Assembly: GCF_014641495.1 (NCBI RefSeq)
Contig: NZ_BMHV01000009.1
Coordinates: 1-64,000, forward strand
From: Terasakiella brassicae
Lineage (GTDB): Bacteria; Pseudomonadota; Alphaproteobacteria; Rhodospirillales; Terasakiellaceae
Reading direction: 5' to 3'
DNA length: 64,000 nucleotides
Made by a program: the position numbers and the translations under genes. A model generated the notes under the pieces. The model ran no database searches. It was not told the origin of the DNA and was given only the letters and a program-made list of their open reading frames with translations. This document shows, piece by piece, positions 48,781 through 53,281 of this stretch. The stretch's first letter is position 1. Every line of letters starts with the position of its first letter.

Positions 48781-49800
48781 ATGAACTGGTTAACAAACTA
48801 CGTAAAACCGAAACTGCGCGACCTTGTGCGCCCCAAAGAAATCCCCGATAACCTTTGGCACAAATGCACCAAATGCGGTCAAATGATTTTCCACCGTGAT
48901 CTGGCGAAAAACCATCATGTCTGCCAGCATTGCGGTCATCATATGCGCCTGTCAGTCACAGAGCGGCTGGAACTGTTATTTGACGATGGAAAATATACCC
49001 GCGCCGAACTGCCCAAGGTCAAACAAGACCCGTTGAAATTTAGTGATCGCCGCAAATATAAAGACCGCATCAAAGAAGCAAATAGCAAAACCAAGGAAGA
49101 AGATGCCCTTGTTGTCGCACATGGTAAAATGGGCGCTCAGAACGTGGTCATTGCCGCCTTTAACTTTGCCTATATGGGCGGGTCTATGGGAACGGCTGTC
49201 GGTGAAGGATTGGTTGCGGCCTCCAAACTGGCGATTGTACAAGATGCAGCCTTGATTGTTGTCCCAGCCTCAGGCGGGGCGCGTATGCAAGAAGGCATCC
49301 TGTCCCTGATGCAAATGGCACGTACCACAATCGGTGTGGAACGTGTCAAGGAAGCCGGCTTGCCCTATATCGTCGTTCTGACCGATCCGACAACGGGTGG
49401 GGTTTCTGCCTCTTTTGCGATGCTGGGCGATATTGCGATTGCTGAAAGCGGCGCTGTTATCGGTTTTGCCGGTCGCCGTGTGATCGAACAAACCATTCGC
49501 GAACAATTGCCCGATGATTTCCAGACCGCTGAATATTTGTATGAACACGGCATGGTCGATATGGTTGTGCGCCGTCACGAACTGCGCCCGACCCTGATCA
49601 ACGTTCTCAGCCTGTTGCGCCATACAAAACCGGCAGGGGATCTGGTCGAACTGGCGCACGGTGATAAACCGATCGAGCCGGAAGTCGAAGATAACATCAA
49701 CGACATCCCGCCACCGCCGGATATCCGCCGCCCTGACAGTGAACCGCTTCCGGGCACAGAAGAAAAAGACGAAAAGGACGAGGACCATAAAGCTGACTAG
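48781..49800 (+). CDS. accD: Acetyl-CoA carboxylase carboxyltransferase beta subunit
   Basis: A 339-residue subunit that transfers carboxybiotin carbon to acetyl-CoA together with AccA. The zinc ribbon ligands are Cys29, Cys32, Cys48 and Cys51. The crotonase-like core has GGSMGTAVGEG and the acetyl-CoA loop PTTGGVSASFAMLGD. The last 50 or so residues are an acidic, proline-rich tail (for example DIPPPPDIRRPDSE) of the kind that varies among alphaproteobacteria. The folC start lies within its last codons. Confidence 0.97.
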   Translation: MNWLTNYVKPKLRDLVRPKEIPDNLWHKCTKCGQMIFHRDLAKNHHVCQHCGHHMRLSVTERLELLFDDGKYTRAELPKVKQDPLKFSDRRKYKDRIKEANSKTKEEDALVVAHGKMGAQNVVIAAFNFAYMGGSMGTAVGEGLVAASKLAIVQDAALIVVPASGGARMQEGILSLMQMARTTIGVERVKEAGLPYIVVLTDPTTGGVSASFAMLGDIAIAESGAVIGFAGRRVIEQTIREQLPDDFQTAEYLYEHGMVDMVVRRHELRPTLINVLSLLRHTKPAGDLVELAHGDKPIEPEVEDNINDIPPPPDIRRPDSEPLPGTEEKDEKDEDHKAD

Positions 49801-51070
49801 CGATATCCTTCTCTCAGAAATTGCCAAGCTCCATGACAAAGATATTGATCTGGGGCTTGAGCGATTTTTGACCCTGCTGGAACGGTTGGACAATCCGCAG
49901 AAAAAACTGCCGCCCACCATTCATGTTGCAGGCACCAACGGTAAAGGATCCACCATCGCTTTTTTACGCGCCTTTTTTGAATCCGTTGGATACAAGGTGC
50001 ACAGTTTTACCTCGCCTCATTTTTTCAATGCCCGCGAAACCGTTAACTTAGCAGGCAATGAAATAGACGAAGACATCTATTGCGCCCTTCTTCAAGAAGT
50101 CATAGATGCCAATGCGGGTGCGCCCCTCACGGTATTTGAAGCCATGACCGCCGCTGCCTTTCTGGCGTTTAGCCGCAGCAAAGGCCATGTCCTGTTGCTG
50201 GAAACCGGAATGGGCGGATTGGGCGACACCACCAATGTGATTGAAGCCCCGATCGCCTGTGCCATTACGCCGATCTCACTGGATCATAAAGAATTTCTGG
50301 GGGAAAGCGTTGCTGAAATCGCCTGCCATAAGGCCGGGATTTTGAAAAAAGACGTTCCCGTTGTCATTGCCAAACAGGAAGACGAAGCCTATCACGCCAT
50401 TCGCGAACGGGCCAAGCAACTGAATGTGCTGATGTATCGCGAACGGCGCGAATGGTTCATTAAAAAAGCAGGCGAACGGGTCATTTTTGAAGGATGGCAA
50501 GGCATTGATCGTGCATGGCCCCGCCCCGCCCTGATCGGATCTCATCAAGTTCAAAACGCCGGTGTGGCCTTGGCCTGTCTGGAACTGGTGAAAGACCGCT
50601 TCAATTTCCCTGATGAAGCCTTAAACAACGCCATGCGTTCCGTTCACTGGCCGGGGCGACTGGAACGTGTCGTTCTGCCGACCTTCGATCCGAAATGGGA
50701 GATTTGGCTGGACGGTGCCCATAACGAAGCAGCGGGAAAAGCGTTACGGCGGCAACTCAAAAAATGGGATGACCGTCCGCTTTATCTTGTGCTTGGCATG
50801 CTGAAACGAAAAGACAGCAAACCTTTTATTCGTGAAATTGCCGATGTTGTCGATCATGTCTACACCGTTCCCATCCCGAACCAGCCGTGCAAAAAACCGG
50901 AAAGACTCGCCCTGAACGTCATGGATATCGGGGCAACGGCAACGGTCTGTGAAGACTTGCCGCTTGCCTTGGAATTGATTAAACGCGAACGTAAAAAAAC
51001 GGGACGGATCGTGATTTGCGGCTCTCTCAGTCTTGTGGCTAACTTCTATGAATTACAATCACGCACTTGA
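49793..51070 (+). CDS. folC: Bifunctional folylpolyglutamate/dihydrofolate synthase, CUG start
   Basis: A 425-residue ATP-dependent ligase that adds glutamate to folates. Motifs are complete: P-loop GTNGKGS (47-53), TSPHFFNARETVN, ETGMGGLGDTTNV, DH (164-165), the carbamylated-type Lys180 (ACHKAGI) and DGAHN in the C-terminal half. No ATG exists near the homologous start. GAGGA (49780-49784) lies 8 bases before a CTG at 49793, giving TSDILLSEIAKLH, which matches FolC N termini. An upstream in-frame ATG (49661) would add 44 unrelated residues inside accD. Two FolC-like genes follow, overlapping in series. Confidence 0.93.
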   Translation: MTSDILLSEIAKLHDKDIDLGLERFLTLLERLDNPQKKLPPTIHVAGTNGKGSTIAFLRAFFESVGYKVHSFTSPHFFNARETVNLAGNEIDEDIYCALLQEVIDANAGAPLTVFEAMTAAAFLAFSRSKGHVLLLETGMGGLGDTTNVIEAPIACAITPISLDHKEFLGESVAEIACHKAGILKKDVPVVIAKQEDEAYHAIRERAKQLNVLMYRERREWFIKKAGERVIFEGWQGIDRAWPRPALIGSHQVQNAGVALACLELVKDRFNFPDEALNNAMRSVHWPGRLERVVLPTFDPKWEIWLDGAHNEAAGKALRRQLKKWDDRPLYLVLGMLKRKDSKPFIREIADVVDHVYTVPIPNQPCKKPERLALNVMDIGATATVCEDLPLALELIKRERKKTGRIVICGSLSLVANFYELQSRT

Positions 51071-52175
51071 TCTGATTTTTGAAAGCTACATTGCGGTCAA
51101 ACCTTTGTTAAAAGGGCGTTTGGACCGCGATGTTCGCAACCCGCATATTATCCTGAATATGGCCCGGCAACTGGATTTAATCCCACCCGCCGATAAAATC
51201 CTGAAAGTCACCGGGTCAAAGGGCAAAGGCACGGTTGCGCGACTTTGTGCCAGCAGTCTTGAACCGTTTGGCAAAGTGGGTCTGGTGATTTCGCCTGAAG
51301 AAATCGACCATACCGATCGCATGCGTATTAACGGACAGCCAATTCCCCAAGACCGTTTTATTGCCTGTTTTGAGAAAATATGGACACAAATTAAGATACC
51401 ATCGGCACCTGATTATCTCTCCCCCTACGGTCTGTTTTTATTGATTGCCCTGCACTGGTTCAAAGAGGAAAACGTCGATCTGTTTGTTATTGAAACCGGG
51501 CGCGGTGTGCGTTTTGACGAAGGCGGTCAAATCCCGGCCCATACCGGTGTCGTGACCTCTATCTTTTTTGAACATGGCGATTATCTGGGGCCGACACTGG
51601 ATGATATACGCGCCGATAAACTCTCTATTTCAGAAACCTGTGACCATCTGGTCATAGGTGCACGTGACACAAAGACACCCAACCTTGCCTATCCACATTG
51701 GTACGAGCTGGCCCGCCAAAGTGCCACCGAAGCCTTACGCGCCTTTCGTGGACGCGCCATTGATATTATCGATATCCCTTGTGCGTCTTTCGCAACACGA
51801 CAAGATGTCAACCGGACTTTGATGTACGAAGGCATGATCGCGCGCGACAGCGCGGACGAGGCCTTTCTACAACGACTTATGCAAGATCATAACGGACAGG
51901 TGCATTTTTATCTGTCGCTGCCCGATGATAAAGATTTCGATGGTATTATGGACCTGTTGCAAAAAACGGGTGCCACAGTCTCCCAAATCATCCTGACCGG
52001 GGAACGTGGCTTTCTGTCATATGAAAAGGCAAAACAACATCAGGTCGCCTATCAAGGGGATTTCAACGATGTTTGCGCCCTGCAATCCGGTCTTGATTTA
52101 CCCCAAACGGGATTGATCTATTTTATCGGTACGCAAACCTATCTGCGCTTGATTAAACGGGCTTATTTTATATGA
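51048..52175 (+). CDS. Diverged FolC/Mur-ligase-like protein, first copy
   Basis: A 375-residue protein with the Mur-ligase central fold. Its P-loop GSKGKGT (56-62) is intact, EH (175-176) and Lys191 (ADKLSIS) are kept, and the C-terminal domain has the DDKD motif (293-296). The folate-binding parts are lost: TSPHL has become ISPEE (81-85) and DGAHN has become EGMIA (261-265). ETGRGVRFDEG (149-159) resembles the ETARGG loop of cyanophycin synthetase more than folate ligases. Its start overlaps folC by 23 bases and its end overlaps the next ligase by 4. ATP use is likely; the acceptor and amino acid are unknown. Confidence 0.8.
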   Translation: MNYNHALDLIFESYIAVKPLLKGRLDRDVRNPHIILNMARQLDLIPPADKILKVTGSKGKGTVARLCASSLEPFGKVGLVISPEEIDHTDRMRINGQPIPQDRFIACFEKIWTQIKIPSAPDYLSPYGLFLLIALHWFKEENVDLFVIETGRGVRFDEGGQIPAHTGVVTSIFFEHGDYLGPTLDDIRADKLSISETCDHLVIGARDTKTPNLAYPHWYELARQSATEALRAFRGRAIDIIDIPCASFATRQDVNRTLMYEGMIARDSADEAFLQRLMQDHNGQVHFYLSLPDDKDFDGIMDLLQKTGATVSQIILTGERGFLSYEKAKQHQVAYQGDFNDVCALQSGLDLPQTGLIYFIGTQTYLRLIKRAYFI

Positions 52176-53281
52176 CGGCTATAGATCGCCTGCTTCAACA
52201 TCCCCGTTTCGGTCCACCCGGTGTTAATGAACGCATGGCCCAACTTTGCCAAGGGCTGAACATGGTGCCCAGCATCAAAGTTGTCGGATCAAACGGCAAA
52301 GGCACCACCGCACACCTGATGGCCCGAATGGCACAGGGATTGGGGAAATCTGTCGGGCTTTATACCTCCCCCCATTTATTGCAGGTCAACGAACGCATCC
52401 AGATCAATGGATGCATGATCACGGATGAAGACCTCGATGCCTGCCTGACACAGGCCTTAAATCACGCGGTCGCCCTTCCACAAAGTGGGCGGTTTGAAAT
52501 CCTGACCCTTGCCGCCCTAATTTTTTTTGCCGAACAAAACGTCGATCTCGCCATTATGGAAATCGGATTGGGCGGGCGGTTTGATCCAGTTCGCATTGCA
52601 CCGGGCACCATTTCGGTTTTGACTTCAATCGATCTGGAACATACCGCCATTCTGGGGGAAAACCTTCACGCCATTGCAAGCGAAAAAGCCGCTGTTTGCA
52701 AAGCAGGTGACACACTCCTCAGCGCCGTTGGTGGTCTTGAAGACTGCATACCCAACGGTGTGACCTATATTGATCTCTCCTGCCCGCCCCTTGATCCCTT
52801 GCACAGCAATGCCCGACTTGCCGCCCATGCCTTAAAACAGCATTTTGCGCTGGATACCTTACCCGAAACATATGGTGTTCAGGTGCCGGGACGGTTGCAA
52901 AAACTGTCCACCCATCCACCGATCTATGTGGATGTGGCCCATAACGCCCAAAGCGTTGCAACGGCTGTTTCAGCTTTTCCTGAGCGTCCCCTCAGTCTGA
53001 TTTGTGCTTTTAAAAATGATAAAGACCTCGCTGCAATAAAAGGGACATTTCATCATGTGATTGCCCTTCAATTTGATGCCGATATGCACACACCAGATCA
53101 TATCCTCACCCACTTGAACGCCACATATAAAGACACCGCACACGATATCGAGCATGCCCTTACGTTCGCAAAAGACAAACGACCTGAGGATGGCGTTATT
53201 CTCTGTCTCGGCGGCTTTGGTATGGCAGGACGGGTCTTGGCACATATGCAGGGTGTTCACTATGATGTGATTGGCTTGTGA
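52172..53281 (+). CDS. Diverged FolC/Mur-ligase-like protein, second copy
   Basis: A 369-residue ligase closer to FolC than its neighbour. It has P-loop GSNGKGT (39-45), TSPHL (65-69) with NERIQING, EH (156-157), Lys172 (ASEKAAV) and DVAHN (254-258). The DATN-type element of FolC after GLGGRFD is replaced by PVRIAPG. About 50 residues shorter than FolC, it is coupled to the preceding gene by an ATGA overlap. The three ligases are thus made from one mRNA in tandem. It may still act on a folate or pterin, or on another carboxylate; the substrate is not known. Confidence 0.82.
   Translation: MTAIDRLLQHPRFGPPGVNERMAQLCQGLNMVPSIKVVGSNGKGTTAHLMARMAQGLGKSVGLYTSPHLLQVNERIQINGCMITDEDLDACLTQALNHAVALPQSGRFEILTLAALIFFAEQNVDLAIMEIGLGGRFDPVRIAPGTISVLTSIDLEHTAILGENLHAIASEKAAVCKAGDTLLSAVGGLEDCIPNGVTYIDLSCPPLDPLHSNARLAAHALKQHFALDTLPETYGVQVPGRLQKLSTHPPIYVDVAHNAQSVATAVSAFPERPLSLICAFKNDKDLAAIKGTFHHVIALQFDADMHTPDHILTHLNATYKDTAHDIEHALTFAKDKRPEDGVILCLGGFGMAGRVLAHMQGVHYDVIGL

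Follow-up and report, generated by a model that had tools for sequence, protein, structure and literature searches.

Paired FolC-fold ligase genes behind folC in Terasakiella brassicae as a possible two-part amide-ligase module

The window analysed here, a stretch of 64,000 nucleotides at the start of contig NZ_BMHV01000009.1 of Terasakiella brassicae (assembly GCF_014641495.1, host genome of 3.64 Mb), encodes two ligases of the FolC fold, gene 2 and gene 3, directly downstream of folC. The genes accD, folC, gene 2 and gene 3 were arranged head to tail in this order and were followed by a DUF1223 gene (Table 1). As reported in a preliminary description of the window, folC and the two genes behind it formed three consecutive open reading frames (ORFs), with overlaps of 23 bp (51048-51070) and 4 bp (52172-52175, ATGA). 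The folC start that it had placed at 49793 had to be given up: the codon there is CTG, not a standard start, so that the true start is uncertain, the nearest in-frame standard codon upstream being GTG at 49739 and the ORF finder opening the frame at GTG 49661.

Table 1. Positions of the ligase genes, their diagnostic motifs and accD in the window
Feature	Position	Strand	Remarks
accD (context)	48781..49800	+	Carboxyl_trans and Zn_ribbon_ACC; immediately 5' of folC
folC, canonical	49739..51070	+	TIGR01499 339.7 bits vs cut-off 162.65; start uncertain
gene 2, FolC-fold ligase, TGSKGKG type, 375 aa	51048..52175	+	
gene 2 P-loop TGSKGKGT	51210..51233	+	
gene 2 ISPEE where TSPHL expected	51288..51302	+	
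gene 2 metal-site Lys191	51618..51620	+	
gene 2 EGMIA where DGAHN expected	51828..51842	+	
gene 3, FolC-derived ligase of clade C, 369 aa	52172..53281	+	
gene 3 P-loop GSNGKGT	52286..52306	+	
gene 3 DPVR where DATN expected	52583..52594	+	
gene 3 metal-site Lys172	52685..52687	+	

An intact P-loop (GTNGKGS in folC, GSKGKGT in gene 2, GSNGKGT in gene 3) and a metal-binding Lys (in HKAGI, DKLSI and EKAAV, respectively) were present in all three proteins, in agreement with the preliminary description. The motif changes it had listed were also seen in the sequence: gene 2 carried ISPEE for TSPHL and EGMIA for DGAHN, and gene 3 had DPVR in place of DATN while retaining TSPHL, as well as VAHN. Gene 2 further displayed DEGG at the DATN position. 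Among homologues, the P-loop and the metal-site Glu, His and Lys were kept in every row of the motif table, both for gene 2 (15 rows) and for the clade of gene 3, clade C (11 rows). The TSPH position of the gene-2 rows read SPEE (12 rows), SPHE (2) or SPNE (1), and the GSL position GTQ, GIQ or GVQ. WPGR and HQxxN were absent from all 15 rows, the DGAHN motif had lost its His and held E or D at the Asp position, and the C-terminal DK motif was kept throughout. A conserved S-F/W-G was noticed by eye near the expected PGR position in a nine-row gene-2 alignment, where the window protein has SFA. Clade C rows kept TSPH, the PGR-type Arg and the DGAHN His in all 11 cases; their DATN motif ended in Arg (10 rows) or Lys (one row), and their GSL position was of GG type in 10 rows and still GSL in genome G005. 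In L. casei folylpolyglutamate synthetase, R300 aligns with the Arg of PGR, and D313 and H316 align with the Asp and the His of DGAHN; the roles of these sites are presumed.

Gene 2 fell outside FolC by its motifs (ISPEE, DEGG, EGMIA), by its score against TIGR01499 (98.8 bits, under the cut-off of 162.65) and by tree, and gene 3 by its DATN motif (DPVR) and by tree. In a 54-row tree, built after removal of rows L168, L145 and L111, the gene-2 rows formed a clade of their own (support 100/100), and clade C (99/97) stood apart from folC. A branch supported at 100/99 set gene 2 and the rows of TGSKGKG type, mostly of Firmicutes and Chloroflexi, apart from folC, clade C and two rows of SCGKG type; the TGSKGKG rows grouped together at 92/74. 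A 57-row quick tree was in agreement. On these trees gene 2 does not descend from the adjacent folC, and a recent tandem duplication of folC was supported by neither. The separate clades and changed motifs uphold the earlier view of two diverged ligases rather than plain duplicates of the adjoining gene.

Other ligase identities were tried and rejected. Genes 2 and 3 scored under 26 bits on Mur models, below the NCBIfam cut-offs for MurC, MurD, MurE and MurF; four further Mur_ligase_M genes sit together on contig C8 of the host genome. Against the PgsB/CapB model TIGR04012 (cut-off 222.7 bits) gene 2 reached 15.6 bits, and gene 3 was not listed at E<=1. For cyanophycin synthetase (TIGR02068, cut-off 850 bits) gene 3 reached 21.8 bits and gene 2 was not listed at E<=1; genes 2 and 3 also differ from CphA in being two separate FolC-fold proteins, where CphA unites an ATP-grasp half with a Mur half in a single chain.

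The structure prediction proposed in the preliminary description yielded FolC folds for both genes. AlphaFold models reached a mean predicted local distance difference test score of 94.6 for gene 2 (36 alignment rows) and 93.1 for gene 3 (29 rows), with L167-L170, L174, L175, L129 and L141 left out of the rows prepared for the alignments, and both are confident, complete models of that fold. The best solved match of gene 2 was E. coli FolC (1w78; Z 33.9, root-mean-square deviation 2.8 over 348 residues), and that of gene 3 was M. tuberculosis FolC (2vor; Z 39.5, deviation 2.8 over 355 residues), tied with 1w78. These were followed, at best Z of 20 to 24, by cyanophycin synthetase, pseudomurein ligases and MurE, and plastid RNA polymerase chains were among the matches of gene 2. 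The fold by itself gives no proof of function.

Within Terasakiella, gene 2 was found in four of the five congeners searched (57-62% identity). Both genes were open and in the same order in these four (G001-G004), and the 23-bp and 4-bp overlaps recurred in all five genomes with the pair, as judged from coordinates with genes 2 and 3 counted from ATG. Nonsynonymous divergence (dN, Nei-Gojobori) between the window and the four congeners was 0.30-0.37 for gene 2, 0.27-0.35 for gene 3 and 0.27-0.32 for folC. Synonymous divergence (dS) was at least 1.2 and beyond estimation in two gene-2 pairs, so that dN/dS ratios are rough. Purifying constraint on both genes was clear. Pseudogenisation in relatives, named beforehand as a finding that would speak against new ligases, was looked for in these four congeners, and a pseudogene reading was rejected on the open frames and on dN well under dS.

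Gene-3-type ligases were always preceded by a partner ligase gene, which is the new observation here: in all 11 clade C loci seen, such a gene lay just upstream on the same strand. The partner was gene 2 in seven loci (the window, G001-G004, L100, L102) and an ATP-grasp protein in four (G005, G079, G161 and G265, the gene of the last being cut by the contig end). A fairer set for pairing is given by the four clade C genomes of the class sample (own, G079, G161, G265), obtained by searches made without gene 2 in mind, and all four were paired. In three of the four ATP-grasp partners tested, the best match was the front, ATP-grasp half of cyanophycin synthetase (7.8e-29, 3.4e-24 and 4.5e-34), with all scores far under the 850-bit cut-off. 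Of 385 genomes, 12 had a match to the ATP-grasp profile at E<=1e-30, and three of these also carried clade C. Six RimK-type matches were found in the host genome.

In the congener G005 the ATP-grasp pair stood directly after folC, at the site that genes 2 and 3 occupy in its relatives. No gene 2 was found in G005, where the two matches obtained were folC and the clade C gene. The folC of G005 was sister to that of G001 (99/98), which carries genes 2 and 3, so that an exchange at this locus within Terasakiella would be the simplest account; the clade C gene of G005 may be either the old gene 3 or a newcomer, the branches placing it being supported at 70/8 and less. A 345-aa gene on the opposite strand (L043:2585-3622), with a weak CorA match below cut-off, lay between the ATP-grasp pair and a DUF1223-like gene in G005.

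Both families were rare in the samples searched. Matches to P0002 at E<=1e-15 were obtained in 9 of 385 genomes of the class. Six of these were counted as gene-2 clade (own, G054, G072, G100, G200, G298), by full protein reading for all but G298, and the remaining three (G093, G144, G161) as FolC-type or clade C. In the phylum sample, the gene-2 profile at E<=1e-38 matched the own genome only (1 of 299). The clade C profile matched 27 of the 385 class genomes at E<=1e-65 and four at E<=1e-153 (own, G079, G161, G265); its other matches, from 1e-72 on, were taken as folC. A search for further clade C genomes among the relatives of G079 and G161 added none: for G079 the set held 1 genome of its family and 1 of its order, and for G161 it held 2 of its family. 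A separate FolC-type gene was present in all 11 genomes checked (ten gene-2 genomes from outside Terasakiella, and G005).

Placement relative to folC differed between genomes. In Terasakiella, Telmatospirillum J64-1 (L098), Arenibaculum (L101) and G054 (L056) gene 2 stood downstream of folC, and in two metagenome-assembled genomes (MAGs; L105, L116) it stood upstream, in each case on the folC strand and no more than about 1.3 kb away. L105 is labelled Hydrogenophaga and L116 Cytophagales, but the neighbours of the latter look betaproteobacterial by eye. Where gene 3 was missing, gene 2 was usually near folC, downstream in alphaproteobacteria and upstream in the two other MAGs; in Tistrella (L055, L106) it lay about 3.5-4 kb from folC on the opposite strand. 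No folC was matched in the flank examined of L099, L100, L102 and L104. The ATP-grasp pair followed folC in G161, as in G005, and was away from it in G079 (by eye). The preliminary description had treated the three genes as one unit and proposed a check of whether the extra two always follow folC. The triple as a unit was not supported: pairs were found away from folC in L100, L102 and, with the ATP-grasp partner, in G079, and the recurring element is a partner ligase with a gene-3-type ligase, folC being a neighbour that is frequent for gene 2. The frequent folC proximity favours a folate connection for gene 2, whereas the pairs away from folC favour an independent module. The neighbours of gene 2 in L100, L102, L104 and L053, named by eye, gave no firm functional clue. 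The locus of L099 is also that of L053:5668-7364, from an alphaproteobacterial genome of 1.2 Mb, where 29 bp separate gene 2 from a phosphoribosyltransferase-like gene (by eye) ahead of it.

The evidence on motifs, clades and pairing suggests, with about an even chance of being right, that gene 2 and gene 3 each supply one half of an amide-ligase module; the pair probably joins amino acids onto a product. Each protein would bind ATP and Mg2+ at its FolC-type site, activate a carboxylate as acyl phosphate and couple it to an amine, a chemistry established for the Mur/FolC family. The two would act in turn on one acceptor, extending or capping a short peptide-like chain, with gene 3 as the constant half and the first half supplied by gene 2 here and by an ATP-grasp ligase in some relatives. 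Catalysis by both proteins, the acyl-phosphate chemistry, the order of steps and the shared acceptor are all parts that we infer. The acceptor may be a folate tail or a separate peptide-like product. The idea that conserved ATP chemistry accompanies changed acceptor pockets was borne out as far as the kept ATP and metal residues and the other, altered motifs go; a folate, a pterin and a peptide-like product are all candidate acceptors. A wider proposal, which we hold only tentatively and consider rather doubtful, is a two-ligase system of mix-and-match type. At one and the same locus, the first enzyme, of either ATP-grasp or FolC fold, would be exchangeable ahead of the FolC-derived second one, and the two would make a so far undescribed product, either a cofactor with an amino-acid tail or a peptide-like compound; the system would be scattered among Proteobacteria and have its parallel in Firmicutes.

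Several observations weigh against a two-ligase module. Gene 2 was the means by which seven of the 11 paired loci were found, five of them in one genus, so that the pairing of L100, L102 and the four congeners is partly due to selection. Eight of the ten gene-2 genomes from outside Terasakiella had no clade C match, the other two (L100, L102) having clade C beside gene 2, and gene 2 therefore does not need gene 3. Two loci looked at closely (L207, L208) showed no ligase beside the ATP-grasp homologue in the stretch examined, L207 being at a contig end. Gene 3 scored 220 bits, in two stretches, against TIGR01499 and so over the curated cut-off. Catalysis by gene 2 is not assured, because it lacks the Arg of WPGR and the His of DGAHN. 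This loss in all 15 rows, together with that of HQxxN, also speaks for gene 2 as a partner that binds ATP, has weak catalytic activity or none, and stabilises or regulates a FolC-type ligase (FolC where gene 2 is alone, gene 3 in the pair). MurE-like proteins became subunits of plastid RNA polymerase, chains of which were among the fold matches, and most of the genomes seen have folC or a clade C ligase as a neighbour of gene 2. Such a role is improbable, though still to be reckoned with: the P-loop, the metal-site Glu, His and Lys and the C-terminal DK motif were kept in 15 of 15 rows, more than binding alone would need, and neither folC nor clade C was seen beside gene 2 in L099 and L104.

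Somewhat less improbable is a folate-tail system, in which gene 2, with gene 3 in Terasakiella, modifies or caps the FolC polyglutamate tail, for example by another linkage or amino acid; we regard this as unlikely on balance. It agrees with the same-strand position of gene 2 near folC in several genera and in two arrangements, and with the ATP-grasp pair after folC in G005 and G161, and the alpha-linkages reported for the distal folate tail of E. coli, in passages of PMC1971073, also speak for it. The loci where folC was unmatched in the flank examined (L099, L100, L102, L104) and the pair placed elsewhere in G079 tell against it, the motifs near the presumed folate and amino-acid sites are altered, and the alphaproteobacterial adjacency may be one inherited placement. 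That the genes are plain redundant folC copies or decaying duplicates is very improbable. The shared fold, the tandem position and the gene 3 score over the FolC cut-off agree with such copies, but the supported separate clades, the clade-wide motif changes, the constraint seen against four congeners and the separate FolC-type gene in all 11 genomes do not. The two-ligase module is favoured over the two live rivals, the folate-tail role and a non-catalytic gene 2.

The TGSKGKG family of Firmicutes and Chloroflexi, for which no name was found, shares with gene 2 the P-loop, a D-G-x-I-x-R-x-S-A-type motif, GTQ, an N-terminal motif and its side of the tree. It differs in that most members keep TSPHL, in the GR of PGR, present in all 13 second-tree rows, and in its length of about 430-470 aa. 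Among 80 loci examined, with genes named by eye, a RimK-like ATP-grasp gene was near the match in 19 and a convergent second ATP-grasp-like gene in seven. One or two RimK-like genes lay upstream of the ligase in Bacilli, Clostridia and others (L107-L109, L111, L113, L117, L118, L120, L121, L133, L138, L139, L145, L147, L155, L159, L162, L164, L165). Tandem FolC-like genes, of SCGKGST and then TGSKGKG type, occurred in Bacilli (L123:4643-7350, L156:4677-7347) and are a second two-FolC-fold arrangement. Since ATP-grasp and FolC-like genes adjoin TGSKGKG matches, ligases as neighbours are a recurring theme. Amidohydrolase-like genes (N-formylglutamate amidohydrolase-like by eye) were near the ligase in 11 of the 80 loci, 8-18 bp downstream in L158, L160 and L161 and upstream in L108, L118, L121, L139, L144, L145, L149 and L151; a product-cleaving enzyme is possible. 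In acidophilic Bacilli and related MAGs (L110, L112, L114, L119, L122, L125, L132) the ligase stood beside penicillin-binding-protein-like genes, some of these loci also having a SpoVR-like gene (by eye).

In the window itself, an htpG-like gene (named by eye) lies on the opposite strand beyond the DUF1223 gene, and an Rfam scan at the gathering threshold and a tRNA scan gave no matches.

Genes of this kind are easily mistaken for extra folC copies, gene 3 even passing the curated cut-off, and such mislabelling would conceal two separate families of ligases or more. A new folate tail or a new peptide-like product, if the pair does make one, would add a pathway together with enzymes that form amides. 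If two unrelated folds do occupy one position ahead of a common second enzyme, this would be a clear instance of replacement, and one that cultured strains of Terasakiella, for example T. pusilla DSM 6293, would allow to be tested.

No description of the gene 2 and gene 3 pair was found in our searches of the open-access literature (PubMed Central), in keeping with the initial statement that no described pathway with this triple was known to its author. FolC (TIGR01499; 1w78, 2vor) shares the whole fold, the P-loop and the metal-site residues with both; gene 2 differs by its score under the cut-off and its clade, and gene 3, although over the cut-off, by its clade and the replaced DATN. In methylofuran biosynthesis, the ligases MyfA and MyfB are thought to act sequentially on the glutamate tail of the cofactor, according to passages of PMC8141765; both are ATP-grasp proteins, without the FolC-fold member found here. 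Cyanophycin synthetase CphA1 combines an ATP-grasp and a MurE-like ligase, two amide-ligase activities, in one chain, as described in parts of PMC9427784. The window pair, by contrast, consists of two separate FolC-fold proteins with no ATP-grasp gene, and its likeness to CphA1 lies in the two amide-ligase activities that it would hold and in the ATP-grasp partner of its relatives, which best matches the ATP-grasp half of CphA1.

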